In this document: positions 20,373 through 63,754 of the stretch, in pieces
Position numbering within the stretch: the first letter of the stretch is position 1
How the letters are laid out: each line of letters opens with the position of its first letter
Assembly (NCBI GenBank): GCA_963921795.1
Contig: OY997641.1
Location: 56,557,693 to 56,621,692, forward strand
Source of the DNA: Nannobrachium achirus
Lineage: Eukaryota; Chordata; Actinopteri; Myctophiformes; Myctophidae
DNA: 64,000 nt
Direction of reading: 5' to 3'
Position numbers and translations under genes: made by a program
The notes under the pieces: model-generated
Told to the model about the DNA's origin: nothing
Database searches by the model: none
What the model saw: only the letters and a program-made list of their open reading frames with translations

Positions 20373-20687
20373 TCCACACTCCAATGCATTCTACCGAACT
20401 TACGGCTACAATTTGGCACAAATGGTGCGACCAATCTGCCGGTTGGAATTGCGAGATAGCGAAAATGATGTTGGTGTCTCTTCCTTCTAAAAATTCCTTG
20501 GGAGAGGCCAGGAATAAGGTGAATAGTAGGCAGGACTATAGCTGTTTCTGGTAATAATTGTATGTCTTTGCCACCACTAGCCGGCATGGCGATGAACCCT
20601 GGTGGCTGTGAGTGTGTCAGCTACAAACTCTGTACTCTTCCCGCACCTCTCTTGTCTTATCTCTTTACTCATCTCCTCTCTTATCAG

Positions 20688-23600
20688 ACAACTACAGAAC
20701 ACCTCAGAGATGGACAAACTGGAGATCCAGAACAGTGTGTGTCTCTGTCCTCCGGGACCACATGCTGCACTTCTGACGGTTCCTCTTTATAAAGCATTCA
20801 CCAACGCCCACAGAGTAACAGCAGAGAAACACATGTCACTTCTGCCACAGAGCGTGTGGAGTCACTCTATGATACTGTTCACCTACGGAGACCGTCTGGG
20901 AGACAGAAGCATTGAGCAGCACATTGAGGCTGGAGGAGAAGACCTCTGCTGGCTTGTTGCCAAATGTGAGAACAGGTACCATGTCTTCAACAATGAGAAG
21001 AGAGATGACACTCAGGTCACACAGCTGCTGGAGAAGATAGACCAAATGGTGGCAGGAAACAGACACTATGAAGTTGATGGAGATGTTGCAGAGAAGTTGT
21101 CAGTGAGGAAGAGGAACATAGAGGAACGTGTCCAGACATTGATGACCAAGACACACAGACAGAGAACTGTTCTGAAAGCCCTGTTTGAAGGTAATTATTT
21201 ATTTTTAAAAAAAAAGAAAAGAAAATAAATACCGGTCAGCCAGTGTTATTAATTCAAATTATTAAACTGATGAAATAACAATAACACTTGAACAACCCAA
21301 GCCCCCACATCGTATGTACAACAATGTTAACAGTCAGTAAACAAACCAACTTACAGTATACTGTACGTTTTTACAGGGTATTTGTATTCTGTATTTTTTT
21401 TTAAAGACTTTAAGACATTTTTAATAATCATCATCATACCTGGAAGTTATTTCAATTTGTTTGAAGTTTGATGTTACTGATTTAATTATCAAAATATTAA
21501 CATGTTCCAGACATTAATTAATTAATTTCCATCACATTTACATAATTGATCACAATATTATAAGACCACTTTAAAGAAAGAAAATCATATAATGTGAGCT
21601 AACATTACTTATACTATTCTGTGGTCAATTCCGCCAGAATTCATTACTCTGTAATAATGAATATTATTTACTTACTTAATCCTCTTCGTGCAGGATAGGA
21701 CATAAGGTCTTCATAATATTGAATACTTAAAGATGGGGCCCCATGATTTTTCCCCCTCTAAACATGATTATCAGCTATTATGATTATACTAGGAGGAAGA
21801 TTTTTTTTCCAAAAAAGTGTACAGAAAGAGTTCAAATTTGTTTTTTGTGTGGCCACATCCACCAGTTCATTAAGTATGCCTGGTTGTCATGATGGGTGGT
21901 GACCCAGCCGAAGTTAGCCACACCCACGTGTGTTGGGTGATTGGTAAAAGGGGAGGGGTTGATTCTATGATGTAATTGTATCTGTGTTTTTGGACCAGCA
22001 CTTTTGACCCACAAGGTGGTAGCCTCCAGGTAGAAACCTCAAATACAGAGAAAATACATAATTGCTCATAACAACCACACCAGGGGGTCTAATGAAGTAC
22101 TGTGAACCTCATCGACACATGAAAAAAGTACCAAACTATGGCACCACCTCTTAAATAGTGAAATAGTGAACTAATGTAGAGTTTGTGTGTCAGGAGAACA
22201 TCAGAGTCTACCAGATGTGAGGCTGATGTTGGTTGGAGGACACCAGGGCACAAGGATGGTGGCTGGATGTGTCATACTGGAGGAGAATGTTGTGTTTCCA
22301 GAATGGGAGGTGAGTCATATTATATGAACATGGTATAATTAAGGCTGGGATTAACTGATTAATTGCGATTAATTAATTACAGAAAATTAACGTGATTAAA
22401 AAAATTAACGCATTTTAATCACACTTAGTTTTTGCACCACAGAACCTTCAGTTTTCGGGCATACCGATCATAGCAATGCACCAACCAAGAAGAGACAACA
22501 AACGCAAAGGGAGAAGTAGCCGATCAGAGCGCTTTGCTTGGCCCAGTGGATGCGAAATTTAGATTTACTCCTACAACAAAATATGTTTTACTAGGAAAAA
22601 AATGCTTCTCAGGTCAAATATTGATGTGCCATTAAAATGATTAATTGTGATTAATTAATCACAGAGCCTGTAATTAATTTGATTAAAAGTTTTAATCGCA
22701 TCCCAGCCCTAGTTATAATGAATGACCTCAATGTAATAAATATATCAAATACACACACACACACACAGACACACACACCCTATCTTAAATTACGTTCACA
22801 CATCAAAGGGTCATCGAGCCCCTGTTCTTTTACCCTCCTTTTTGTTGAAAGAAAGAATTGTCCTTGGTGTATGCAGGTGTAGATGCTGTATGCTGTATCT
22901 CCAGTAAAGGCTTGATTATAGTTGGTTGAACACTGCGTTGTGCACTGAAAATACCTGATCGACAAGCTCACATAAATGCAGCCAAGCGCGTAAGCTTGTA
23001 GATTGGCTTTTTGCAGATCTAGTTAGGTCTAATGATTCTATTTTGTTCATCACAGTCTATGCATTTAATTTGTGTCACTGTGGTACTATTAGACAAAGCT
23101 TGGGTCATATGTAGGACAGATTAGTCATTTAAAGTACAGTTTAACTTAAAACCTCCTAAGTCACATATATTATTTTAACTAACATACAGTAAACCTCATA
23201 TTCCAGACTAAACAGACAGAATGTGTCAGACAACAGAGACGAGTTGCTGACAGAAATGTGAGTGTGGTGATCTGTCCAGATTGGTCGACCACCCCTCCAT
23301 CACAGAAGATCAAAGATGTCCTTCTACATGGTGTGACTCTGTGTTCTCCTGGACCCCATGCTGTCCTAGTGAATGTTCCTGTCTGGTCCAGTTTCTCTGA
23401 AGCTGACAGGAGATCAGTGGAGGAGCACATAGAGCTGCTGGGGGACAAAGTCTGGAGACACGTTCTGGTTCTGTTCACATGGGGATTCTGGCTGGGAGAG
23501 AGATGTGTTGAGGAGTACATAGAGTCTGAAGGAGAACCTCTGAGGTGGCTCCTGGAGAAATGTGGCTACAGGTACCAGGTTCAACGCAACCATTCAGATG

Positions 23601-25681
23601 TAAAAGAGCTGATGGAGAAAGTAGAAGACATGGTGACGAGGAACAGAGGACACTTTGGACCTTCAGATTCAAGAGAAGACGGGTCTGTCAGAGACACAGG
23701 ACACCTCAGGGAGGGATATGTGACGGGACAGAAGGCACTTTTTGAAAGACTGACAGGAAAGAAAACATTTACTGCTGAAGAATGGAACAGACGAGAAGAA
23801 GAATGGAATAAGAGGAGAGAGGAGGAATTGAAGAATAGAGAGGAGGAATTGAAGAAGAGAGAGGAGGAGATGATAGAGAAGGTGTTGAAGTTTGTGGCGA
23901 AGGAGCCAGCTCCCAGAAGACGGGCGAGCTTGATCTTGACTCCTCCATCCAGTGAGTATCAATATAATTGATCTGATAACCAGTGTTGGGTGTAACGGCG
24001 TTATAACTAACGATGTTACGTAACAACGTTAGTTTGGCGGTAGCGGAGTAACCTAACGAGTTACATTTTACAATATAACGGTTAGTTACTTAGTTACATT
24101 TTCAAAAAAGTAATCCCCTTATTTTTTTTAAAAAAGTGTCCCATTTTCACTGTTCATTTTGTTGCCACCGATTAAAAAAGAAGCCCCGAGTCACATTTCC
24201 TCCTTCTGTCTTATTCTGTCAACAAATACACGTGTCAAAGGGGTGTGTGTAGCTGTCTGTCTGTCTGCCTGTCTGCCTCCCTTGTATGTCAGCCAATCGC
24301 ATTCCTTTCATCTCTGCAGCTCTGCAACGCGCGTCATCTTGAAACCAGGAAATCAAATCACTCACTGTTGTTGACTTCTGCTGCTCCGTCCATGTCCCAC
24401 GAAACAACAACAGAAGCTGCTGCGTCCCTCTGTAATATAGCCTACGTGTTGATTGTTACTCACAACGGGGAGAAATTAGTAGCGTCCGTGCATGCCTTTA
24501 GTTGACCGTGTGTAAAAGTCCGCGTCGGTAGGGTATTAAAATGGATTTACTGTACATCATCGGATCGGATCTGGACGGCGGACAACGGTGGATTCGGACC
24601 CGGCCGTTTAACTCCGGTATAGAGCCTCCATAACAACGCCATGGCACCGAGGTACTGTACAGTTTAACGCTGGGGAGCGTTGGTCTTTTGAAGAGGACGC
24701 ATGAGCTAAAAGGAGGCTTTTTTTTTGTCTTTTTATGTTTACCAAACTTCCACACTGGTGGGTTTTAATGATCGGTAACGGTAACGGTAGCTTGTTAAGT
24801 TACAATTGTCATTGGGTAGCGGAGTAACTTAACGGATTATTTTTCAAGTCAGTAACTAAAGTAACTTAACAAGTTACTTCAAAATGTAACGATACCCAAC
24901 ACTGCTGATAACACACTTCAATGTGATCATATATTACAGTGGCTTTCATAAAGACACTTAAAAAAACACTGACCTAGACTTCAATAATAATAATGATGAT
25001 GATGATGACTATATTCTGCAGCAAGTTAACTGTCATGTGAAGCTCAACCAATACTCGAGCTAGCACCACTCCTCAAATTTCAATTTCCAATTGCATCTGA
25101 TTTCCATCAATTTCCAATGGCAGTGGAAAAGTTTATCTAGTGAAAAGAAAGTTTACCCAGAACTACAGTGTGTTGGCCTTCGGGCAACCAGACGTATCTA
25201 AGTATCTTGTCGTGTCCCAAATATGGAGATGACTGACGTCTGACATAGACAGAGTTCATTTGCACTGACCTATCCAGGGCTGCTGAATGGCCAATGACAG
25301 AATTAATTTCCAATGACCTGTTCTGACACCACGACACCTCATCCCAGCTCAGCAGTAGGCCTGTGCTGAAATATCGATATGGCGATATATCGCGATACTC
25401 CTAAATAATACTAAATAATCGATACACTGACAGCAAATATCGATTTCACAACGCCATGTATTTCCCCATGTTAACATAGGATGAAGTACCGCCAGCTGCC
25501 TGCACTGTTTGTGGTGGGGGCGCTAGTGAACGTAAAGTGAGCAGGTAGAAACAGTGAAGAAAAGAGAGGACGTTAGCGAGAGGGAGAGGAGTGGAGAAGT
25601 GAGTGAGAGAGGAAAACAGGATACTTTAACTTACTACAAGGTGAAGTTGATTTGAGCAACAACTCTGTTTGTGATCACACA

Positions 25682-28458: not shown

Positions 28459-31400
28459 TAAACGTATAGGTTCCGGACGGAACCATGTTTATTTAATACC
28501 GGAGGACAAGGTCCCCCTATGGGATAACCAGCGCCATCTGGCGCTGCAACAGAGTAAAACTCATAAGCTCCCGTACGAGAAATATCATTTGTCGGTAGGG
28601 CTGTCAATCACAAACGAGGGCACCGCCCCCGAGTGTATAAAAGCCCTGCGGGCTATCATAACTTCCTCTAAAGCCGCACCTCTGCGCCCGCAACTAGCGA
28701 ACCGAGGGGCTTTATTCGGGGGACCTTGTCCTCCGGTATTAAATAAACATGGTTCCGTCCGGAACCTATACGTTTATTGTCATACCTCCAGACAAGGTCC
28801 CCCTATGGGACTCATATACTCCCCGAGAAGTCATGAACCGACAAGACTGTCGTGCACACCGACCACACCCGGAAGGAGGTCCTGTCAACCGACGTGACCC
28901 CTTTCAGGACTGATCCGACCCAGACCCACAGGGCCTGGGCGTGTTCAGACAGAAAAAGAGAGACCCTGACAGACCGAGGCCCGCCTTATGCACTAAGGGC
29001 AGACACAGGTCCACCTTATAAAATTGCAATAAAATAAGGGAAAAACTCAGGGTCCCCCCCCACGTATCCTAGAGACAGCAGCATGCTATCTCCGGAAGGG
29101 GAGAGAGAGCCGCCCCACTACGTAGTAGGAAAGGCAGCAGCACCCAGAACCGTATGCGCCATAGCAGAAGGCGCAACGTCCAGGTGATAGTAGGTCGCAA
29201 AGGTGGACGGCGAAGACCAATTCGCCGCTGCACAAATCTCCTCAATGGAGACACCTTTGGACAAAGCCCAAGAGGTAGACACACCCCTAGTACTGTGGGC
29301 CTTAAGTGCTTCCGGCACTTCAGACCCAGACCGGGTGTAAGCCAACCTAATAGCATCCACAAGCCATCTCGACAGAGTGGGCTTGGACACCGCTTTCCGT
29401 TGACGGGCATTCATGACCACGAAAAGCTGAGAAGTAGACCTGCTGTCCACCGTCCTATCACAGTAGGCCTTCAGGGCCCTAACTGGACAAAGACAATGAA
29501 GACGCCTATCCTCCTCTGATGCAAACGGAGGAGGATGGAAAGCCGTCAAAACAACAGGTTCCTTCGGGACCACCCGGTTCTTAGGAATAAAACTCAAATG
29601 AGGTTTGAGAAGAACCTTGGAGTCATTATTGAGAAACCTCATACAATCAGGGCTCACAGAGAGCGCACGAAGGTCGCTCACACGCTTAGCCGTAGACAAG
29701 GCAAGCAAAAGAGCTGTTTTGAAACTTAAATGTTTCAAAGAGGTCCTCCCAATCGGTTCAAAGGGTGCCTTGCAAAGGCCCTCAAGAACCACTTGTAGAT
29801 CCCAAACAGGAAACAAGGCTCTGGTCACAGGTCTCAAATGGTCAACACCATGCATGAACTGGACCACCTCAGGGATTTTAGAAAGGCCTTTACCTGCCAC
29901 CCCCAGGTGGCAGGCATCAATAGCCGCTAAATAACCCCTCATTGTAGAGAACGCCAGACCAAGGTCCAGGCGGTCCTGCAGGAAATCTAACACCCTCTGG
30001 GCCGAAGCTATATGAGCCACCACAGGTGGCTCCTGTAGCTCACACCAGTCCAAAAAGGCATTCCACCTTCCATCATACACAGCCCTAGTAGAGGGGGCTC
30101 TAGCACTCTGAATAGTGGCTACAACCGTCGGTGAGAAGCCTGCTGCGAGCAGGTTCTCCCTCTCACGGGCCAAACCCACAGGTCTAGGCCCCGTGGGTCT
30201 GGATGGAAGATCTCGTCCCCTGCCTGGCGCAGCAGATCCCTGAGCAAGGGAAGCCGCCAAGGGGGTCGAGAGAGCAGTGGGGTGATCAGAGACCTCCACA
30301 CTCCCCTGGATGGTGTCACCAGAAGAACCTCCTGGTTGGAACATCTGATCCTCTCCAGAGTGGGAAGAATCAGTTCCAGGGGTGGAAACGCGTAGAGAAG
30401 ACCTTGTGGCCATTCGTAAGCAAACGCGTCCATCCCCAGAGGAGAAGGTCCCCTCACTGAAAAGTAAAGGGGACACTTCGCGTTCTCCTGGGAGGCAAAG
30501 AGATCGACTCGCGGTCGACCGAACCTGGAGAAAATCTGCCTCACCACCGCAGGGTGGAGAGACCAATCCTCGTAACGAGGCTCCCCCCTGGACAACAGAT
30601 CGGCGCCGCCGTTCTGAAGGCCCGGGACATGGGAGGCTCTGATGGACCTCAACCGAGGCAAGCACCAGAGGGTCATCTCGCGCGCCAGCTGATCCAGCGT
30701 ACGCGAGGAGAGGCCGCCCTGTTTGTTGAGATAATACAGGGCCGCCGTGTTGTCCGTCCTGACCAGGACATGGCAACCCCGGAGAAATGGTTCGAAATGC
30801 TTGAGCGCCAAGTAGATCGCCATTAACTCCAGATAGTTGATGTGGTACTCCAACATGGCCTGGGTCCAAAGACCCCTGGCTGAGCGCCCCTCGTGGGTGG
30901 CGCCCCACCCTGAGCGGCTGGCGTCTGTGGTGATCACCTTGCGTGACACCACTTCGCCCATGGAGACCCCACTTGTCAACAACGCCTGGTCCCTCCATGG
31001 GACCAGAGCGTCCATGCAGACCTGGCTGACTGTCACCTTCCTGTACCCTTGCAGGGAAGGAATCCTGAGCGCCAGTGACCACCGCTGGAAAGGTCTCATA
31101 TGAAACCTGCCCAGACGCAGAAGTTGCACCGCTGAAGCCATCAGCCCAGTCAACTTCATGCACTCCTTGTACCTGACCACCTGGTTCAGTCGGAAGGAGC
31201 CGAGACAAGTCAGAAACCTGTCCACCCTCTCCGGGGAGAGGAGAGCGGACATGGTGGCCGAGTCCAGAGATATTCCTATAAAGGAAATCTGCTGGGAGGG
31301 TGACAACATGCTTTTGCCAAAATTGACGTTGAAACCCAAGGCCTTCAGGTGTGACAACACCAGATTGGTATGGCGCGCCGCTTCTGAGCAGGAGGCGGCG

Positions 31401-34400
31401 GAAATCATCCAATCGTCTATGTAGTTCGCCAGCCTGACTCCCTGATGCCTCAGTGGAGCAATGGCTGCCTCGGTCACTTTCACGAAAACCCGAGGGCTCA
31501 GAGAAAGACCGAAAGGGAGGACCGTGTACTCGTACAGGCGCCCCTCGAAGGCGAACCGCAGGAACTTCCTGTGTGGGGGATAAATGAGGATGTGCTGATA
31601 AGCGTCCTTCAGATCCACTGAACAGTGGAAATCCCCCTGTCTCACTGATTTCATCAGTGACTCTGACGTCAGCATCCTGAATTTGAACTTTTTCAAGTGC
31701 TTGTTCAGAGCACGTAAGTCCATAATCGGACGCAGCCCCCCTCCTTTTTTCTGAACCAGAAAATAACGGCTCCAGAAGCCTAAACGGCTCTGGTCGCGTG
31801 ATAACTCCACTATAGCGCCCTTGCGCAATAGTGAGCTTATCTCCTCCCTCAAGGCATCCGCCTTCAAGCCGCGGGCTCGAGTATAAATAACCTTGCTGGA
31901 TAGGGAGGGTTTTTTCGCGAACTGTAGTCTGTAACCCCGTGTCACCGTCCGAAACACCCAGTGATTCGGATTGCAACGCTTCCATTGCTCTGCACACTGT
32001 GCTAACGTGTTGCTGAGCAACGGAGAAGCCTTGGGGTTGTACCGCCTGAGCGGAACTACTGGGCCGGGAGGGAGAGGTTCCGTATCCGGGCACGTATCCG
32101 TATCCGCTAGACGCCGGGCCGGAAGGCGCGGAGACACCGGCGGAAAGAGCGTTTCCGTTTCCGGTACGCTTATTTCCGTATCCGGTGGGAGACGAACACG
32201 TGACCTCCAAGAAGCCTCGCTTGTTAATAATACAGGCGACACACAACGTGGAGCCCGGGGGACAGGGTTCATCGCATAAGTAACATAATCCCCGGCTCGG
32301 GGAATTGTATTTACGTTTATAACCTGTGCTAAGGCCTTTATATGCTTCCTTGCGGGAAGACGAGGCCGACCCTGGGTGATATGTGTTGGCTTCTTCCCTG
32401 ACGTTAAGACCAAACTCCTGTCCTGAACTAGAGTCGGCATAACAGTGCCGCTCGGTGGAGACAGAGGGGTATTGCACACTAGTGAGACCATACCATTGTG
32501 AATAGGAATTAGCTTGTCTGGGAACATTTTGCAAAGAGAAATAATCTGCTTGTAACCTGTCTGCGTGACTGGAGGAAGCGATATTTTCTGAGTGGAAAGA
32601 AATTCCAGCCTGGACTTCTCTACACTGGTTAAATTCATGCAAAATGGGGTCGTCTGTAGTAAAGCAGGTGGGTTTGAAATAAACAGGCATTGTTTTATCA
32701 ACACACTTTTTATTACAGGCACTGGAGGAGAGCACAGAGGAGGAATAAACATTAATTTCTTGGCATAAGAAATTTTTTTCGTATTGTCCAAACGTCTGCG
32801 CTTGCAAGGGGGGGTCCCCTGAATTTTCAGGGGGACCCCGCCAGAGTCCAGTGTCACTTTCGCGGCGGCTTCCCACGGGCTTTGTGGGAGCTGGCCGGTA
32901 TCCCGTGCCTGGGAGGGTGGCGGGATTGAGAGCGGGCCTGAGCCCCCGCTGCAGTGTGAGGGGGTCCCGCGGAGGAAGAAGAGGGGGTCCTAGGGGGATT
33001 GTTCTGTTTCCCCTGTTTGGAGGAAGAGCGCCCCCTGTCAGCCTGACCAGGGGCCTTGCTCCGTCCCTGTCTCTTTTCCTTTCTGGGTACCTGGGGGTCC
33101 GTCGTGGCGCCCAGGAGCTCCAGAGTGATCTTCTTATCCGCCACCTCCTGGCGGAGAAGCTCCAGTCCACCGCCCATGAGGGAGGAAGGGTGGCCGGGGA
33201 GGTCTTGCAGGACCTTCTCGGTCTCCTCTCCGGAACTGCCAGGACACTTTACCTTATCCAGCCACCTGGCACGTTCCGCCTGGATGCAATAATCCATGCC
33301 GTGTCCAAGCCACTCGATTGCGTGGACATTCAGGTCCATCAGCATGCGCAGCGACTTGTCCATTTCCTCCACCAACACGTCAGGCACCTCCCGCATCTCG
33401 CTGAGGAGGCGCCTGGTGGAGAAAAGCAGCAGCTGTGTGGCGTTCATCGTCCTGGCTGCCAGCGCGGATGCTCTGTAAGAGTTCCTAACCCTGGAAGACT
33501 GCTTGTCGTCAAAGGGGATGGCAAACCCAGGAGGCTTCTTACCCACGGCCAGATTGAGGGGAGGACGGCCTCCAGGACCGGTCCGCTCATGACCTGGCTT
33601 GAGGCTCCCTACCAGGGACTGGGCCATCAGCTTGTCCATGGGAGGGCACAAGGGGATTCCCGCGGGATTCACCCTCCGTGTCCAACTCCTCCATGTCGCA
33701 GTCCTCTAGCTCCGGTTCGTCTCCATCGCTAGCATGCCAGGAGACGGGGCTAGGTGGCCGCATAGCCCGTAGCTGGGGGACGGAGAAGGAGAGAGGAATG
33801 TCACCGACGACTAGAGGGTGGAATTCCTTGGGGGGGACGGTCCAGGTTGCAGCTGGCGGAGAAGCAACGTGGGCGGTCTTGCATGTTCTCTTCTTGGGCA
33901 CGGCACCAGTCGAGCCCGTCGGAGAAACAGCAGTGGAAACAGGGGCCGCAGACCCGCTAGCAACGGGGCTACCGAAGCTAGCTGAGGGCGAGGCCGCTGG
34001 AGGCCTAACCACGTGGCGAGAAGCAGCGCTGTGGCGTGCAGCGCTGTCCGGCACACGAGGAGAGGTGTCTGGGAGGGATCCGGCGGAGACCGTGGTGTGA
34101 AGGCCGTAACCAGCGCCAGCGATCTCATAGCGGGCCTCGAGGGCTGGAACATCATACTGGAGGCAGTCAGTACAGTTCACCCCCGTGGCCGGGGCCGGAG
34201 GGGACAGAGAGGCCAAGGCGTGTCCTACCCCCATGCAGACAATGCAGAACGGATGAGTATCTTCATTGGCGATGAGGCCTTTGCAGCTGGGAAGGCCGCA
34301 CTTCTTCGGTACCCTAGCTAGCAGGTTGCTAACTGTGGGCCGACGAGCTGCCATCGTGAGCTAACCGAAGCTAAGCGAAGCTAAGCTAAGGCAGGGAGAC

Positions 34401-38645: not shown

Positions 38646-38956
38646 TCAACCTGAACATCTCAACTTTATGAAAGATTTAGATTCCGCGGCCGACTTAAAT
38701 ATACACTCCCTCAGTGAATCATATTGTGTGTCATATTCCTCACAAGATGATTTAATCAACCATACAGGTTGAAGACGCAAAGAAGACATTCTTCTTGTTG
38801 AATCAACAGAGCCACAGTTCAGCTGTCTACACACTACAGTTGCTGTATCCTGGTTCCACCTGCTATCATCCACGTTTCTCCACTCTCCCTGGTGTTGCAT
38901 CTCGAGTACACCATTACAGTGACTGCTTCCTCGCACCAACCTCATATCCTCAGGTG
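38646..38956 (-). CDS. SRCR10, terminal exon with stop
   Basis: Acceptor CTGTACAG before 38956. It starts [15 protein letters not shown], keeps VVCRQLNCG and ends KLRCSG followed directly by TGA. It has six cysteines of the reduced type, and the region after the third cysteine has an insertion EEYDTQYD. A weak GTTGAC donor at the same spot is not needed. Confidence 0.8.
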
Positions 38957-41011
38957 CTGTACAGAGACAATAGAATAAGCAGTCAAAAAACAAATCTTAC
39001 TTTTATTGTAAAATCCAAACCTAAAATGTAATTTGTCTTTTACCTGAGCATTTGAGTCCAACGGTCTTGTCAGGTGAGCAGGTGTTGCTAGTTGAGTCTG
39101 AGGTTCTACAGCTCAGGAGAGCAGACTCACTGCCTTCACACTGGAACTCTTTGGTCGACATTGGAGTTTGTACTTCTCCATAGAGCGCCCCCTGGAGGAC
39201 TGAAGGAGCCCCACAGCCAAGCTCCCTACAGACCACCTCTGCATCCTTCTGGCCAAAGTTATCTTTGCACACTGGGACCCACGACTGAGTAGACTTCACC
39301 TCCACTCTGCCTGAACATGAACTAGGCCCATTCACCAACCTTACAGAGTCTGGAGAGAGAGACAATCTTCTGTCATCGTTCCAAGGAAATAAGTACAACA
39401 CTACTGTATGTGTATTTATATGATTAGTGTTGTGCAAGCAAATAAATACACCAATAAATCTAAATCAAATTGATGGGTGAATGGATTTTAGGATCAGTTT
39501 TGGGGAAGTAATGTTGTTGTGTGTAGGGAAAACAAGAGCGTACCAAGTAGCCTTTTGAGCCTTGGAGGACCCTGGACAACTAAGCGCTTAAGTGGTTAAG
39601 TCAAGAAATAAAGTGTATGATGTGGCTGTAGCTGGATGGATGGATAGATATGGATTACTGTCATTGTTGAGGTCGTTGTTGGTAATTACCTGAACAGATC
39701 ACCTCTATGCTGCCGTCGCTAGAATGAAACCTCCTATATGATCCACACTCCCTCAGTGAAGATTCCGATCCAACACACTCAGATGTCAGCATCCATACAG
39801 ACCCCTTTGAACCAGTCATCTTTTTTGTTGAAACAGCAGAGCCACAGTCCAGCTGCCTACACACTATAGATGCGTACCTCAGGTTCCAATTGTTCGAATC
39901 AATTAGTCTCCACTCTCCATTATTTTTCATCTCCACTCTGCCAGCACAGTAACTAGTTCCTCCCACCAACCTGACATCAGGGTCTGTAGTACAAAGACAA
40001 GGTAATATGGTGGTACAAAAAAAAATATATATACAGTACGTTGAATGTAAGATAATAAGTACATTCTAAAGCGTAGTGTGTCTTTTACCTGAGCAGGTGA
40101 GTCCAACAGTCTTATCAGGTGAGCAGGTGTTTTTAGTTGAGTCTGAGGTTCTACAGTCGAGGAGAGCAGACTCACTGCCTTCACACTGGAACTCTTTGGT
40201 CGAAATTTGGGTGTTCTCATCTTCAAGGGGAACTCCTCCGTAGAGCCCCCCCTGGAGGACTGAAGGAGTCCCACAGCTAAGCTGCCTGCAGACCGCCTGT
40301 GCATCCTGCTGGTCAAAGTCACCTTCACACACTGGGACCCACAAGTCTCCAGAGTGGTGGTGAGTAGACTTCACCTCCACTCTGCCTGAACATGAACTGG
40401 GCCCATTCACCAACCTCACAGACCCTGAAGTGGGAGGAGAGAGAGAGGGGGGGGGGAGGGGGGGGGGGGCAATTAAAGATTTCTATGCACAGAATTATTA
40501 TATATATTTACACCCTCCACACTCATTAAAAAAAATACAGCACAAATGGTCATATTTAACACTCTCCGCACACCCACCCTTACATACAAACGTACAGATG
40601 ATTACCGTCGTTGTTTTTTTACCTGAACAGATCATCTGCAGTCTGTTTGCGGAAGACAAATGACTCCAGCTTCCACACTCGCTCAGTGAAGATTCAGATC
40701 CATCACATCTAGATAGACTGTGGTACCATACAGGTTCCAACGCAGAACCATCACTCAATGTTGTTGAAACGGGAGTACCACAGTCCAGCTGTCTACAAGC
40801 TACAGAGGATAACTTCTGGTTCCAGCCACTAGGATTTACTGGATACCACTCGTCCTCGTGTTTCACCTCCACCATACCAGTACAGTGTCTGCTTCCTCCC
40901 ACCAACCTGAGATCAGTAGACTCTGAACAGAGATAATAGAATAGACTGTAATGTGTGTGTGTGTATGTATGTACCGGTGTGTATATATATACAGTATATA
41001 CTGTATGTGTG

Positions 41012-41074
<63 letters not shown>

Positions 41075-42340
41075 TTGTGTGCGTGTTTACCTGTTGTGTA
41101 GCGTGCTGGTTGAACATGGAGAGCTGAAGAGAAGAAATACATAAACAAACAAATGAATTCGTTTCAGTGTAACATAGTATACATGGATCCTCTACACTAG
41201 GTTGGTTTTTCTGTTGAAATACAGGAGATTATGTATTTTGTTTCTCCTGTTTGCTGCTATTTATATGGATTTTACAGTTTTTATTTGACATTCACGGTTT
41301 GGGAGTGAGAAATTGTATGATTTTACCACAATACATAAAGTATAATAAAGATGTATACAATGGAAGATTAAAGCACTGAAGCGGTAGGCCTATTAACTAA
41401 CCTGCTAAAGAAGACTCACTTATCTAATGTAAGTCATTACTTTCAAAATAATGACACTTCTTCCATCTTTCCATCTGTCCGGATAAACTTTATTTTGCCC
41501 CGCTATGCCTCCCACAGTTTTGGTGGCACACACTTGGGCCATAATTATGTCAAATCGACCCAGGTCGGTAGGTAGGTAGGTAGGTAGGTAGAAGATAAAA
41601 TAGGAGATTGTATAGATTACTGTCATTTGGTGAAGTGATCGTTTGTTACCTGAACAGATCACCTCCAGTCTGTGGCGAGTTGTATCAGACTTAGACCACG
41701 TCGTTCTACACTCCCTCAGTGAAGATTCGGATCCATCACAGTTCGTTATCATCCTCAATGCAGGTACAAGTTCATGATCAGAACTCCTTTTTGTTGAAAC
41801 AGCAGAGCCACAGTTCAGCTGTCTACACACTACAATTGCTGACTCCAGTTTCCAGCCATAATAATCATCCACTAGGCTCCACTCTCCCTGGTGTTTCATC
41901 TCTAGTGTACCAGTACAGTGACTTGTTCCTCCCACCAACCTGATATCTTCAGGCTCTGCACAGAGACAAGAGAAAAACAGTACAAAAAGTTATATTACCT
42001 TGATTTTTAAATAATTACCCACACCTGTAAGTGAATTGTCTTTTACCTGAGCAGGTGAGTCCAACAGACTGTGTGTTTCTAGTTGAGTGTGCGGTTCTAC
42101 AGCCCAGGAGAGCAGACTCACTGCCTTCACACTGAAACTCTTTGGTCGACATTGGAGATTTTACTTCTCCATAGAGCGCCCCCTGGAGGACTGAAGGAGC
42201 CCCACAGCCAAGCTCCCTACAGAGCACCTCTGCATCCTGCTGGTCAAAGTCACCTTCACGGACTGAGACCCACAACGGATTAGACTTCACCTCCACTCTG
42301 CCTGAACATGAACTGTTCCCATTCACCAACCTCACGGACT

Positions 42341-42396
<56 letters not shown>

Positions 42397-44786
42397 CAGG
42401 TTTCCACCCTCCACACAAGTGAATGGCGGTACTCTATAGCCAGATAATTACCAAAATAATGGCATCCCAAAGTAATTGTTACCTGAACAGACCACCTCCT
42501 GTCTTTCGTTATAAAACTTAGATCTCTTAGCTCCACACTCCCTCAGTGCAGATTCAGATCCATCACAGGAAGAATTCAACCTCCATACAGCTTGCTGTGA
42601 ACCAGAACTCCTTTCAGTTGAAACAGCAGAGCCACAGTCCAGCTGTCTACACACTACTGATGCTGACTTCAAGTTCCACCAGTTCATACTCATTAGTCGC
42701 CACTCTCCCTCGTGTTTTGTCTCCACTGTACCATCGCAGCGACTGGTTCCTCCCACCAACCTGACACCAGGCTCTGTACAGAGATACATTTGAATAAGCA
42801 GTAAAAAACATAAATACCAAATTGATTTTAAATAATAATTCAAACCTTAATTGTAGTTTCTCTTTCACCTGAGCAGGAGAGTCCAACAGTCTTGTCAGAT
42901 GAGCAGGTTTTTCTAGTTGAGTCTGAGGTTCTACAGTCCAGGAGAGCAGACTCACTGCCTTCACACTGAAACTCTTTGGTCGACATTGGGGCCTTCGCTT
43001 CTCCATAGAGCGCCCCCTGTAGGACTGAAGGACTCCCACAGCCAAGCTCCCTACAGACCACATCTGCATCCTGCTGGTCAAAGTCACCTTCACACACTGG
43101 GACCCACGACTGAGCAGACTTCACCTCCACTCTGCCTGAACATGAACTAGGCCCATTCACCAACCTCACAGACTCTGGAGAGAAACAGGAGATAGGCTCT
43201 TGACCTATGCGCCCTATGGCTCGGGAACCGTTGTTTCCCAAGACTACTTAACTTACACACTCATTAAAAATACAACAAACAAAAAGGTCATATTTACACA
43301 CTCCACACGATCATTAAAAACATACAGAAGTGTCCTGTCATTGTTGAAATCATTGTGTGTTACCTGAACAGACCAACTCCAGTCTGTTTTGGTCTTTAGT
43401 ATTTGACATTGTTCTACAGTCCCTCGTTGAAGATTCAGATCCATCACATTTATTTTCGCGAATCCACCATAAAGGTCCATCAGAACCAGTGCCCCATTTA
43501 GTTGAAATAACAGTGCCACAGTTCAGCTGTCGACACACAACAGACGATAACGTATGAGTCCAGCCAAGAGGATAAACCTGTCTCCACTCTCCTTCGTTTT
43601 TCAACTCCAGTTTACCAGTACATTGGCTGGTTCCTCCCACCAACCTGACATCAACATCTATACAGAGACAATGGAATAATAAAAAGTACAAATTATAATA
43701 ATAATGGAAAAAATAAGACAACAATCTATAATGTGTAGTTGTTTGTTTGTGTTTGTTTACCTGTTGTGTGGTCTGTTGGTAGAGCTAAAGAGAACAACAT
43801 ATAACATGAATTAGTTTCAATGCAACTAGTGGTAGTAGTATCTAGCGATACAGCGGGGTGGTTTATATGTTGAGATACAGGAAATGTTGCTCCTGTTTGC
43901 AGCTATTTATTTGACATTCACAGAGTGGGAATGAGTAACTCTATGGTTTCTATCAGAACACACACTTATAAAAAGGTACCGGTATGCAGGAATGGATAGA
44001 AGACAACCAGTGGTTCGTTGTTGCATGGAAACAGACTGGTTGTCATGGTGATTTGGTCACACTACAACCTTGGAGCTACATTTAGGACACAGAGGTCATG
44101 ACCTCTGTATTATTGCGACCATAGGTCGCAGTTAACTATGAAAACCGGCATCTCTGTCTGTCTGTAGGTCACGCCTGAGTCCTGACACTGTGGTTCTATG
44201 CGTTTATTTTTTATTTTTTTGCTCTGACATCATGCTCTGACGTCACTGTGATGTCTGGGGAACCACTCTTAACAGAAAGGGTTTGTCGCTCTGACATATA
44301 TGGAGTTCCCTGATGTCATCAATATTAAGCCCATATCTAACAGGACTTCACATGGAAATGCACATATATGGAGGCCACATCGGCCACATACCACACTAAC
44401 TGCTGGTTCTACAGACAGGGATCTCCATGTATGGGCATAAAAGGGTATGATGTCAGATGTCATACATCAAAGGACTTTCACATAACGAATAACTGAGCAT
44501 ATCTCCATATACAGTACATGGATTTCCATATATGGGTACCATGGGTCTCCATATGGGTAACTGTTCCGATCAGATGGCCAATAATTGGCACGACCTTGCC
44601 CTTTAGGGCAAGGTCGCATGTCGCCCTGAGGCGTCTTACTAGTGTTATGTTTCCAACATACATGATTCATTCAGTCATTTGAATGTTTCTACTGAACTGA
44701 AACACTGGGTCACTTTCTCTGTTCTGACTTTTGGTGGCGCCATTTCACCTTTTTGTAAAGGTTAGGCAGATGACTTTTACTGACAA

Positions 44787-57717: not shown

Positions 57718-57724
57718 TATAAAA
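57718..57724 (+). promoter_or_regulatory. TATA box of the keratin gene
   Basis: TATAAAA, about 95 bp before the ATG at 57816. Transcription would start near 57748, giving a leader of about 65 bases, and the ATG context is CAACCATGT. This compact layout is usual for keratin genes. Confidence 0.75.
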
Positions 57725-57815
57725 GGTGCTGGTGTCAGACCAGTGCTTCACTCAGCCCTCTCCTCTCCATTCAGAACATAAAACCTGCCACCGACCAGCC
57801 GAACCTCCGTCAACC

Positions 57816-60800
57816 ATGTCTTCTCATGCCTCTCTGCCCTCCATCGCCCTGCGGCCCAGCGGCTTCCTTTCCAACCCTGCCACGATGGCGCCTCAGTCCC
57901 TCCTCGACCCTCCAACCAGTGGATTCTCCTACAACCCTCCGGCCTCTCCCGTGCTGCAGTCCGTGATGTGCGGTCTTGATCCCCGCTCTTACCTGAGAGC
58001 CGGCAGCATGTACGGCGGAGCGGGAGGTTCTGGCGTCCGCATCTCCCAGGCCACGTCCTCCACGCTCCACTCTTCGTCCGGCTATGTTCAGGTAGGGGTG
58101 GGCGATATGGTGATAATTATCGTCGAGACGACACAATTTCTCCACGATATGCCTTTTCAGAGGTATCGTATCGTGATACAATTGAGGGAGCCTTGTACAA
58201 AATCCTGTTTAATCGTTAATACAGAGATTCACTGCAGAATTCAATTTAAACCTGGATGTTGGTCTAAATCAGTAGTTCTCAAACTTGTCAAGGTCTCCGT
58301 TTAACTCTAAGGGTCCATTTGGTTTCATTTGTATACCGTCAGAGTTACATACTTGTAAAGTTCAATTTAGACCTCCCAAAAGGAACCCAGAGAGTCTAGT
58401 TTTTGTCAAGTAACTTGAAAAAATATCCATAAAAATCGACTTGAAAAAATAATCAGATAAAGTCGTGTATCGCGATACAGCTTGGGACAATATGGTGATA
58501 TTGTATTTTTTTCCATATCGCCCACCCCTATGTTCAGGTGGCGTCGACATCAACGACAACAAGAAGGCCACCATGCGGAACCTCAACGACCGCCTGGCCA
58601 CCTACCTGGACCAGGTGCGCTCCCTGGAGAAGGCCAACGCCGACCTGGAGCAGAAGATCAGGCTGTGCCTGGAGCAGAGGGCCGTGCCCGAGACGCACGA
58701 CTGCACCGCCTTCAAAATCACCATCAGCCAACTCCAGGACCAGGTAAGAGCAGGAGCGAGCTTCCATTGAGTTAACCCATTTAGGGCCTAGAATTATTGA
58801 ATGCTTTAACCAGTGAAAAATAGCAGATCTGCAAGCTCACAGCGCGGCACCGAACATATTTATTTATTTATTTATTTTTTACTTTTTTATCCCACGATTT
58901 TTGTAACCCATTTTTTCACCCGGTGCCAATTGCCTAAGCTGTGATCCTGGGCTCTACACTCCCTCTGCCAACCTGGGGAGGGCCCCGAACTGAGCTCATG
59001 CTTCCTTCAATGCATGAGGAGTGAGCAGGCCGCTTCTTATCACCTGACAGGGGGAGCTTCCCCGGTTGGACGTAGCGCGTGGAAGGAACACGTTATTCCA
59101 ACCAGTTCCATTCCCCTCCATCAGGCGCCCCGGCTGGCCAGGGGGAACATATTTATTTTTAAAGCAAACGTTTGTAACTCAAATTTTGCTTGAACTGCTT
59201 CTGGGGGGGTCCCTGGAACTAGATATTTTGAGATGGGGGTCCGTGGCCAAATACATATCAGTTTGGGGGTCCTTCACATGAAAAAGTATGAGAACCACTG
59301 ACATAGTAGTCTCTCAAGAACAGACTAACTGAGCTCCAGTTAAGTGAAAAGGACCTTTTCTTTGACGATGGCTGGCCAGATTGCTGACATAGAAACATAG
59401 GTTTTTCAAAAAAAAACTCAGAAGGATTCAAAAGACACTCAAAAAATAGCAGATCTACAAGCTCGCAGCGAGCTTGTAGATCTGCTATTTTTCAATAGTT
59501 AAAGCATTCAATAATGAAACACAATACTCTATACCCGTTGTTAAATGAACTGCAGCGGCAACGGTGTCAATCTCACCAACCAGTGGTTTTCAACCTTTTT
59601 CATATTATGAAGGTCCATTATTTATTTGGCATTTGAGCCACGGACCACCGTTTGAGGAGATTTAGCCTCTCAGAACCAAAACTTTGAATATTTTGTTATT
59701 GTTGGATAAGGTTTTGTCCACAATTCCATGCTGTATTGATGTGTTAGGAGAGTTAACAGGCAAACATTGATCAAAATATCAATTCTTCCACATTCTCTAA
59801 TTGTGTAGAGTTCTTGTAAATTAAGTAATGCAGTTGTTAAAAAAATAATTTAACTCTTGAGATTTGGTTTCATTTTACACTCTCAAGAGTTACAGATCTG
59901 TAAGGGTCCATTTGGTTACCAACTCTCCATCATTTAGCTGGGGACCACTGGAACCTCCTCAAGGACCACTGGTGGTCCGCGGACCACTGGTTGAGAACCA
60001 CTGCCATAAACTCACATAATATTACGCTGGTTTTCAGAACTGGTCACTCTCTGTGACTTACTTGCAACCTGACTTCCCTATATTGGGCATGTCATTATTG
60101 ACAGATTTCTAGAAAAATGTACTGAGTGAACTATTTTGAAACCTTTTGGAATGTTATTTTAAATGCTTGTTGAACAGGTTAGGCGTGGCCATTACAGAGA
60201 CACTCCTAGCCTAAAGTATCCCCCTAATACAAAGCACAATGGGAGCCAGGAGGGCCCACTAACTGGTTATGTAGGTCATGACATGAGGTTTGTTGCTATA
60301 GCCTCTCTAGGAATGCTGAACACTAAAACCTTCAACAAAAACTAAAATAGTTGCATTGCCAAATGCTCTGTGGCTATCAAATTGAGGTCTGGGGAAACCC
60401 ATGGGTCCAGGAGGTGGTAGAAGGGCATTCCACAGCCAAATCAGCTCAGTTTACCCACTGTAGCCCTATTTTCTTTGATCTACAAGCTCACAACAACGCG
60501 TCTGCTATTATATTTGAGCACTGCTAACCGCTCCTACATCTGGCTTTGTGTGTATGTACTGTATGTCCGTCCGTCCGTCCGTCCGTGTGTCCGTCCCGCA
60601 GAGCTTGGCATTGGCCAAGCTTTGCGGGAGGCTTAATGGAATTAGCTTAAAAAAGGCACCGCTCACTTCACACTAGGTGTGATTTGTTTTTAAAGGAAAA
60701 AAAATTGAATAATTTATGGCATGGGCCTACCTGGCACACAATGTTTTCAGATGGGGGACTTCGACCAAATACATCATTTTAGTGTTCCCTTACATGGACA

Positions 60801-63286
60801 TGTTTCACTGATCTAGCTGTTCAGCTGTTAAAACGTCTACTGCTTCCTCACTTTAGATTTCCAAAGCGGTCGTGGGCAACGCTGCAATCTACCTGGCAAT
60901 TGACAATGCAAAGCTGGCTTCAGATGACTTCAAAGTCAAGTAAGTATTGGGGAGGAAACCGATGTCAAAACAGATATACTGCTTTATTCTCTTGTTGTTT
61001 GGGTTGCATTTCAATTGGGTGAATGACAGCATAGGAACAGAGACAGAGAACAAGTTAAGTGGTATTGTTTGTTGGAGGCTGCATTTAGCCCTCTTTTTCA
61101 TTGCTCTTTTTCAAGCCATTAGCAGATAGAAATAGAGTGTGCATTCTATCACTAAAAATGCTTGTAGATATGCTTATTTATGTATTTACCAGGGACAGTG
61201 CAAAATTAGTCAGCATGGTTCTAAAAAAAAAGGCTAAAAGTGGTAAAAGCTTGACTTTGAGGCTAGAATAAATACTTTAGCTGGGCACTCCCTGGTACCT
61301 GCTCAAGACCCCACTTTGATATAATCATTGATATACTGTACCGTCTATCTCCTTCTCCCAGGTATGAGAGTGAGCTGTCCATGCGTCAGGTTGTGGAGGC
61401 AGACATCGGCGGTCTGAGGAGGGTTCTGGATGAGCTGACTGTGAACAGATCCAACGTGGAGATGCACCTGGAGGATCTGAGGGAGGAGCTGATTAGGCTG
61501 AAGGTCAACCACGAGGAGGTAAGATGTTTGGAGGTTGAAGATCACACGTATATACTCAAAGCTGTACCTATAGTCCTTAGGGGTGTCCTTCTTGTCTACC
61601 AATATTGTTCTCAACACCGATCTGTAACTGTCTCTTTTGGCCCACAAACAGTTTTCTTATCAGCACAAAATGTTGTTGATATATACCTGGGCATTATTAA
61701 AGAGATTGGTGTCCCTCTATGTTTTTGTCATTATAGGCTAAATATAAAAAGGAAAATCCAAGTTGCTTTTAAAGATATTATGAAAAGAAAAGAAGAAGGA
61801 CAAGAAGATAATAAGAAAAAACTTGCTTAAGTGGTTACACTTTTCATTATTTGTTGTATGACAAAGTATATTGGGCACGCGGATGTGCAGGCTTTATATT
61901 TTTTATGATGTTCTTATCCGGACAGTACCAATTACTTTATTTAAATTTGTAATTGTTTATCAAATAATCAATTAAATAGGTACTCATTAAGATCGGGAAT
62001 GCATTATTTTATGCTTTAACTATTAAAAATAGCAGATTTACGGTACAAGCTCACAGTGCGGCACCGAGTGCCGCACTGCAAGTCGTAGATCTGCTATTCT
62101 TGAAAAATCTTCAATATTTTGACCCAATTCTATAAGTGTCTTCTAAAATCCTTCTAAGGTTTTTTGAAAAATCTGTTTCTAAATCATTGGTTCTCATTGG
62201 TTTCATGTCAAGTATAAAATAATTCCAATAATAATAGTTGCACCCCCTACAATAACACTGTGCATGGTGTGTGGTTCTCCACCAGGAGGTGCTGGCGCTG
62301 CGTTCCCAGGTGGGCTGCCAGGTGAACGTGGAGGTGGACGCGGCCCCTCAGGAGTGCCTGGCCACCGTCATGGAGTCCATGAGGGAGCACTACGAGAAGG
62401 TCACCGCCCAGAACCGCCTGGAGCTGGACACATGGTTCCAGACCAAGGTAGGCTAAACCAGTGCTTCTCAACCAGGGGGGGGGGGGGGGGGGTCCCAATT
62501 TATTTTGGGGGGTCCCCAGATGATTAACTTAATGTACAACATTGTTTTCTCACTCAACAGTAAACAAACCAATCATAAAGTTTGAGTGTATTAGAGGTTA
62601 TATGAACATTTCTAAAGTGACAATTTAAGGACTTTTTAATACCACTAAATGACACAATGTTCACAATTTTTTGCCTCTTATGACAATTTGGCCAATGTTT
62701 AATTTAATTAAACATTGGGGTGGGGCGGGGGCATTATTCAAAAGTAGGCTATTTTCATAACGTTTTAAAATTCAAATCATAAATACATTTAAAAAAAGTT
62801 AAGAAGAATTGAAAATAGCCGGTGTACAAGCCTGCAACGCGGCACAAAGTTGTGTGTTGTGAGCTTGTAGATATGCTTTTTTCACTAGTTTGTGTCCCGG
62901 GCAAATTTCTCTTTTGGGTCTTGAGCTAAAAAAGTTTGGGAACCACATGGGCTACGCTACACCAGTGGTCCCCAAACATCTTCATGTCAGGGACCCCCAC
63001 ATTCAAATGTATTTGCCCACAAACCATCTGGACCCCATTGAGAACCAGGGCACTGCACCACACACTATTTGTAGTGTACATCCCATTTCACTTTGATCCC
63101 CCTGTTTGTTCAGAACTTGTGTTGCGTAAGCATGGCATTAACGTTGGTGTCCATCCACAGACCACCGAGCTGAACCAGGAGGTTGCTCAGAGAACTGTGA
63201 TCCTGGATTCGTCTAAGAGCGAGATCATCGAGGTCAGACGGACGCTGCACAGTCTGGAGATCGAGCTCCAGGCCGAGATCAGCAAG
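57816..63286 (+). CDS. Type I keratin gene, five 5' exons (3' end beyond the window)
   Basis: Exons: 57816-58091 plus 58538-58743 (exon 1, split by an inserted element), 60857-60939 (83 bp), 61362-61518 (157 bp), 62286-62447 (162 bp) and 63161-63286 (126 bp). These sizes are the conserved ones of type I keratin genes. The head contains [15 protein letters not shown]. Coil 1A has [20 protein letters not shown] then [16 protein letters not shown], the helix-initiation motif. Later exons give [54 protein letters not shown] and [12 protein letters not shown]. The product would pair with a type II keratin in epithelial intermediate filaments. Tail exons lie past the right edge. As assembled, the head frame and the rod frame differ by one base across the inserted element, so the copy may be non-functional, mis-assembled, or spliced differently. 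Introns are full of MITEs. Confidence 0.85.
58093..58530. mobile_element. hAT-like element inside keratin exon 1 (candidate new intron)
   Basis: 438 bp, ends TAGGGGTGGGCGATATGG and CCATATCGCCCACCCCTA, perfect inverted repeats of 18 bp, with perfect 8-bp duplication TGTTCAGG (58085-58092, 58531-58538). The host exon continues on both sides. Each duplication copy contains CAG/G: the left reads CAG/GTAGGG (donor) and the right reads TTCAG/GTGG (acceptor). Confidence 0.93.
58866..59144 (-). mobile_element. Short retroposon inserted into a palindrome-bearing element
   Basis: Flanked by a 14-bp direct repeat GAACATATTTATTT (58852-58865, 59145-59158). A T-rich left end suggests a poly-A tail on the minus strand, so a SINE-like insertion. 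It cuts the hairpin-family copy that starts at 58815. Confidence 0.7.
59581..60003. mobile_element. hAT-like MITE in keratin intron 1
   Basis: Ends CAGTGGTTTTCAACC and GGTTGAGAACCACTG. No matching target duplication, so older or rearranged. Confidence 0.7.
62459..62960. mobile_element. MITE with poly-G tract and palindrome in keratin intron 4
   Basis: Begins CAGTGCTTCTCAACC followed by about 16 Gs and ends near GTTTGGGAACCAC. It contains a diverged palindrome at about 62809-62885. The right edge is uncertain; another CAGTGGTCCCCAAAC element starts at about 62962. Confidence 0.55.
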
Positions 63287-63339: not shown

Positions 63340-63754
63340 CAGGGTTCCCCAATTAATTTTCCCCAAGGGCCGAATCATGTCTAGGGTACCAAGCCGAAGG
63401 GCGCAGCATTGTGGGGGGCGACGGCGGCGTTCCCGCTACTCCAGCGACAGTTCAGATATCGTCGTTGTCTGGAGAAAATCTTTAGTTCGTTTTGCATATA
63501 TAATTTTAAAAATGATTTACACTAGTGAAAACAGACGATCTACAAGCACACAACGCCTCGCACCGCGAGGCGTTGTGTGCTTGTAGATCTGCTGTTTTCA
63601 CTACTTTTGTGAGGCGGCCTTGACTGATGAAGCAGGGCTTTACTTTGCGAAAGAACGTACACATTTGGAGATACAAGGTTTCCAGCCGACAACGGCCAGA
63701 CAGTAGCCCCCCGCGGGCCGTAAATGGCCCGCGGGCCTCCTATTGGGGAACCCT
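63340..63754. mobile_element. hAT-like element, 415 bp, with palindrome, in keratin intron 5
   Basis: Ends CAGGGTTCCCCAA and TTGGGGAACCCTG, flanks CTGTACAC and CTGTACGC (seven of eight). The 79-bp palindrome 63524-63602 sits in its middle, with the same immediate flanks (AATGATTTA, CTACTTTTGTG) as the copy at 10891 although the element ends differ. Confidence 0.88.

Follow-up and report, generated by a model that had tools for sequence, protein, structure and literature searches.

A hAT-type MITE in exon 1 of a Nannobrachium achirus type I keratin gene as a candidate intron

Can an element that splits a coding exon be removed as an intron whose splice sites were built by its own insertion? 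This question is raised by a type I keratin gene on the forward strand of the lanternfish Nannobrachium achirus, which starts at 57816 and whose exon 1 is split by an element of 438 bp. The window, i.e., the whole stretch of 64,000 nucleotides that was analyzed, is part of contig C4 of a 1.66-Gb genome in 564 contigs. The gene is composed as follows:

57718..57726, forward strand: TATA-box-like sequence TATAAAAGG, recognized by eye, 98 bases upstream of the start codon
57816..58091, forward strand: keratin exon 1, head part, 92 open codons ending at a codon boundary
58537..58743, forward strand: keratin exon 1, rod part, in a frame one base off that of the head
60857..60939, forward strand: keratin exon 2, from homology
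61362..61518, forward strand: keratin exon 3, from homology
62286..62447, forward strand: keratin exon 4, from homology
63161..63286, forward strand: keratin exon 5, from homology
64633..64857 on a numbering extended into locus L009, beyond the window, forward strand: keratin exon 6 with the rod end EYRRLLDG, from homology

The keratin gene and the inserted element

Exons 2 to 6 are open and in frame up to the rod end, and together with the rod part of exon 1 they form an open rod of 960 bases, ending in EYRRLLDGDLDRY. The rod scores 293.6 bits against the Pfam family Filament (PF00038), both end motifs of the intermediate-filament rod are found in the gene (EYRRLLDG being the distal one), and its relatives among the matches listed are largely type I keratins, mostly from teleosts. 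The gene resembles the type I keratins of teleosts (K13-like) in its Filament match, and its rod sequence and intron positions correspond to those of the closest paralogue (L020/L084); the difference lies in exon 1, which is uninterrupted at the insertion point in this paralogue and in one neighboring keratin. The dN/dS value between the keratin studied and the closest paralogue amounts to about 0.45 (0.217/0.486) and covers the entire history of both genes, beyond the time since insertion.

The exon-1 rod has 15 matches in the genome, itself included. None of the other 14 features a stop in the matched stretch, and the closest of them is 74% identical, so that no near-identical copy or haplotig was found in the genome. 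Protein searches with the keratin gave no relative above 68% identity among the matches listed (120 of 3,721 and 120 of 129). The closest paralogue has a 95% relative on a JGI contig of 1,363 bases (P0029), which indicates that a relative of the fish is present in the database, with the keratin studied being absent from the matches listed; it may be unexpressed in the JGI sample, lost or absent.

Some further features of the window were recognized by eye. The keratin introns contain short palindromic repeats whose arms are similar (about AGATCTACAAGCTC), located at 59440-59500, 62020-62100, 62810-62880 and 63520-63600. Elsewhere, open frames resembling GIMAP-type GTPases lie at 20596-23971 (forward strand), SRCR-like exons follow each other in a row at 38646-43784 (reverse strand), and two long overlapping open frames of 1,376 and 956 amino acids at 29118-33248 (reverse strand) appear retrotransposon-like, with reverse-transcriptase-like and tyrosine-recombinase-like parts.

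The insertion itself comprises three features:

58093..58530, no strand assigned: non-autonomous hAT-type MITE, 438 bp, with perfect 18-bp terminal inverted repeats
58085..58092, forward strand: left copy of the target-site duplication TGTTCAGG, giving CAG/GTAGGG with the first bases of the element
58531..58538, forward strand: right copy of the target-site duplication TGTTCAGG, with the candidate acceptor TTCAG/G behind a pyrimidine-rich stretch

The initial annotation had reported that keratin exon 1 contains an element of 438 bp whose 18-bp ends and flanking duplication are perfect, and this was confirmed from the sequence: both terminal inverted repeats read TAGGGGTGGGCGATATGG, and the 8-bp duplication is TGTTCAGG without mismatch. 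The flanking sequences repeat by chance up to 12 bp (CTATGTTCAGGT), and the boundaries were fixed from other copies of the family. For this, 43 distinct elements were compared that measure 200-600 bp and lie with both of their ends within the fetched loci, the keratin copy being included and the duplication being ignored in the choice. Their 8-bp flanks were perfect duplications in 29 cases, contained one mismatch in nine and 4-6 mismatches in five, compared to no perfect pair and only two pairs with 1-2 mismatches in the control (the next 8 bases outwards, 43 elements). A separate scan allowing up to two mismatches in the duplication yielded 41 copies of up to 1,200 bp. Within the window, a 16-bp end pattern with at most three mismatches matched three times (0.20 expected), and the two exact matches are the ends of the keratin element. 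Genome-wide, the exact 18-bp element end occurs 3,461 times, the reversed control pattern not at all. Judged from the sequence, 8-bp duplications in combination with short conserved inverted repeats are a hAT signature.

Candidate splice sites and the reading frame

The proposed intron and its possible branch point are located as follows:

58092..58537, forward strand: candidate GT-AG intron of 446 nt, equal to the element plus one duplication copy, proposed from sequence and site scores
58494..58499, forward strand: possible branch point GGTGAT, recognized by eye, with the A at 58498, 39 nt before 58537

Cutting out these 446 nt (438 + 8) leaves a single duplication copy and thereby exactly the empty site; the earlier claim that splicing of 58092-58537 would restore the pre-insertion sequence therefore holds. 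The same applies to the proposition that both splice sites are built by the duplication and the element end. The donor CAG/GTAGGG would originate from TTCAGG of the left copy and the terminal T of the element, and the acceptor TTCAG/G would be provided by the right copy, with the element end supplying the pyrimidine tract as well as, probably, the branch point A at 58498.

Splice sites were scored with literature-based weight matrices. The candidate donor reaches 4.9 bits, compared to 3.5-7.0 bits for the five donors of the gene before the rod end and -0.1 bits for the sixth, at the rod end. The candidate acceptor reaches 3.1 bits, the five natural acceptors 3.9, 8.0, 2.5, 2.2, and 2.0 bits. 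No other donor exceeds 2 bits in 57900-58249, and besides the acceptor, a single further site does so in 58200-58749. Thus, the candidate GT and AG boundaries appear to be of plausible strength, within the range of the gene's own sites.

The wider element family may favor such a constellation. AGG precedes 181 of the 3,461 exact ends (5.2%), compared to a background of 1.5% for AGG/CCT in the window. Before 14 of these 181 ends stands CCTNNAGG, compared to an expectation of 2.8 (1 in 64); three of the 14 are close neighbors on contig C15 and may represent one duplicated event. The genome-wide end counts are unbiased, in contrast to the letters of the duplications in the fetched copies, many of which were retrieved via the AGG pattern. 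The family thus has an apparent target preference for CCTNNAGG, and the excess of AGG at its ends would predispose it to the formation of splice pairs: with target sites ending in AGG and element ends starting with TAGGGG, about 1 in 19 insertions would carry AG/GTAGGG at one end and a pyrimidine-rich AG/G at the opposite one.

The initial annotation had also cautioned that head and rod are one base out across the site, which proved to be the case in the assembly. According to homology to another fish keratin, the frames of the head (57927-58055) and the rod (58531-58746) differ by one. The last base of the head, 58091, completes a codon, and an exon beginning behind the candidate acceptor would carry two bases ahead of its first complete codon. 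The offset is confined to the stretch between the end of head homology (58055) and the start of rod homology, and it probably lies close to the insertion, because the head still reads Ser/Gly-rich up to 58082. It may have arisen earlier or later than the insertion of the element, or be an assembly fault.

In this assembly, a precisely spliced message would run into a stop at codon 207 (exon 3), and one that retains the element into a stop at codon 163; in both cases, nonsense-mediated decay would be expected. The description of the element as a ready-made intron is thus supported in part: the anatomy and the site scores agree with it, but its precise removal gives no open keratin in this assembly. 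A scan for alternative pairs (donors in 57990-58299, acceptors up to 58639) revealed 85 frame-keeping combinations, the top 12 of which were listed, and none of the 85 features two good sites. The best one sums to 3.5 bits, pairs a good donor with a poor acceptor (-1.4 bits) and deletes part of the rod start.

Age of the insertion and competing explanations

Whether the insertion was tolerated can be approached by comparing the age of the element with the intactness of the gene. Compared to the consensus of 38 copies, the keratin copy deviates at 25 of 435 bases (5.7%), the other 37 copies by 1.3-17%. Among these 25 differences, 12 are private, four are common to one other copy and nine to two to eight copies, so that 13 are found elsewhere in the family. 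No sister sharing more than three of the 25 was detected among the copies compared, including the nine best other full-length genome matches (taken from 40 scored of 2,314 candidates). Close to the 5-prime end, two changes and a gap of 4 bases occur also in copies outside the private-difference comparison. Nine of the differences, six of them private, fall within 20 bases (element positions 344-363), and this cluster may represent one event; counted as such, 17 differences (3.9%) remain, seven of which are private (1.6%). A very young insertion is not favored on either count, as other copies diverge by as little as 1.3%, and the keratin copy is probably not fresh.

The decay of 1,236 coding bases (head and rod) after loss of constraint was simulated, using 0.05, 0.10, and 0.15 as the ratio of frameshifts to substitutions; the value of 0.15 was measured on the element family. 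The probability of finding at most one lesion at divergence d was, for the three ratios in this order:

d = 0.05: 0.038, 0.0018, 0.0003
d = 0.039: 0.10, 0.018, 0.002
d = 0.028: 0.22, 0.057, 0.012
d = 0.016: 0.53, 0.27, 0.12

Death of the gene at insertion would predict 1.6-13 lesions, depending on the age count, and one is seen. On the middle age counts, constraint has therefore probably acted on the gene through a large part of the period after insertion, while on the lowest count (1.6%) its intactness says nothing. Moreover, the age argument fails in the case of a copy that had aged before its move by cut-and-paste. Age and intactness thus argue against a long-standing death of the gene, with a strength that depends on the age count. 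They lean towards, and do not prove, a tolerated and possibly spliced insertion in a gene that was recently broken or is mis-assembled.

The explanation which we prefer, with a confidence somewhat short of an even chance, is that exon 1 of this type I keratin received a hAT-type MITE, which has been removed as a GT-AG intron for much of its residence. The element and one duplication copy would have been spliced out from the sites described above, and the frame offset would have arisen recently or be an assembly fault. The splicing, its long use and this origin of the offset are the parts that we infer; as a whole, the splicing reading is plausible and unproven.

Held with similar reserve, and again not quite an even chance in our estimation, is the explanation that the gene is dead: the insertion, or a prior frame lesion, would have inactivated a dispensable tandem copy of keratin, the splice-like appearance would be a by-product of the target preference, and either insertion or death would be recent. 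The frame offset lies at the same place as the insertion, the 15 exon-1 rod matches in the genome suggest that one copy may be dispensable, the retained element introduces a stop, and a splice-pair look is to be expected at about 1 in 19 ends of the family. Besides, the otherwise open gene is unsurprising at the lowest element age. At 2.8-5.7% divergence, however, about 3-13 lesions would be expected in the coding bases, so that a dead gene with its single lesion presupposes that the death was recent, that the age is low or that the copy had aged before its move.

The offset may also stem from an assembly fault or a private allele, with the true or common sequence being in frame and the element an ordinary working intron. 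We regard this as rather improbable. It fits the limitation of the offset to a short stretch at the insertion in a gene that is open in the rest, but the absence of stops from the other 14 rod matches gives no sign of frequent small assembly errors there, nor was a second copy or haplotig found in the genome. As an assembly fault is one way in which the preferred explanation would be fully true, the confidences attached to the two overlap. Finally, translation of the rod from an ATG in the element or the rod, which would leave head and junction free to decay, is very unlikely despite an open frame with ATG codons running from the element into the rod (58453-58770), since the head retains 92 open codons as well as a motif in common with the closest paralogue, and since a type I keratin lacking its head would be unusual.

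A latent introner family and known transposon-made introns

A broader interpretation would regard the MITE family as a latent introner in a vertebrate and the keratin copy as an old, probably fixed, working intron. This remains doubtful in our view. A testable source of further introns is offered by the family-wide AGG excess. To detect copies in other exons, the flanking sequences of 41 copies were joined and screened for long open frames; 15 of the 41 were listed and seven inspected. Only one of the seven (L065) lies in a transposase-like frame; the rest are located in N runs, simple repeats or unrecognized sequence. The L065 insertion (contig C2, about 188940-189989) is a same-family element inside an open frame that appears hAT-like by eye, and its duplication TGTTCAGG/CGTTCAGG comprises nearly the same 8 bases as the keratin site. 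Genome relatives align across the joined site at about 53%, and the frame gave no Pfam hit.

Introns made by transposons are a known kind, and a teleost example is included. According to a survey of introners, these are for the most part non-autonomous elements that create introns upon insertion; some families take both splice sites wholly or partly from the duplication, and most introners keep the length of the mRNA (PMC9860276). In the same survey, introners among animals and land plants were detected in only two groups, both of them animals, with no pattern of gain in vertebrates (PMC9860276). Introners form many introns per genome, whereas the keratin MITE offers one host-gene candidate. 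Besides, a study on fish GPCR genes mentions repeats within new introns (PMC3151243). Vertebrate intron gain is described as very rare and its mechanisms as largely unknown. The literature search, within the text portions it returned, yielded neither a hAT-type intron with 8-bp duplications in a vertebrate nor anything on this keratin. What makes the keratin site significant is that element ends, duplication and numerous sister copies are available together in a vertebrate, a group for which intron gain is described as very rare.

For the hAT superfamily, a maize Ds insertion with 8-bp duplications was reportedly presented by Giroux in 1994 as a new intron spliced from a coding exon. That case is said to concern a mutant allele of a plant with splicing shown by experiment, whereas splicing of the keratin element is proposed from its sequence.

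The closest counterpart is intron 3 of slc26a2 in notothenioids, which, according to a report from 2025, was created by insertion of the repeat NTE-1 (PMC12357937). Like the keratin case, it features an inverted-repeat element in an exon of a teleost gene, with the splice sites located in its repeats. In contrast to the 8-bp hAT type of the keratin element, NTE-1 features putative direct repeats of 4 nt and tgt/aca ends (PMC12357937). Moreover, the slc26a2 intron is common to five notothenioid species and received a second repeat by later insertion (PMC12357937), whereas the keratin candidate is based on one genome and accompanied by a frame offset.
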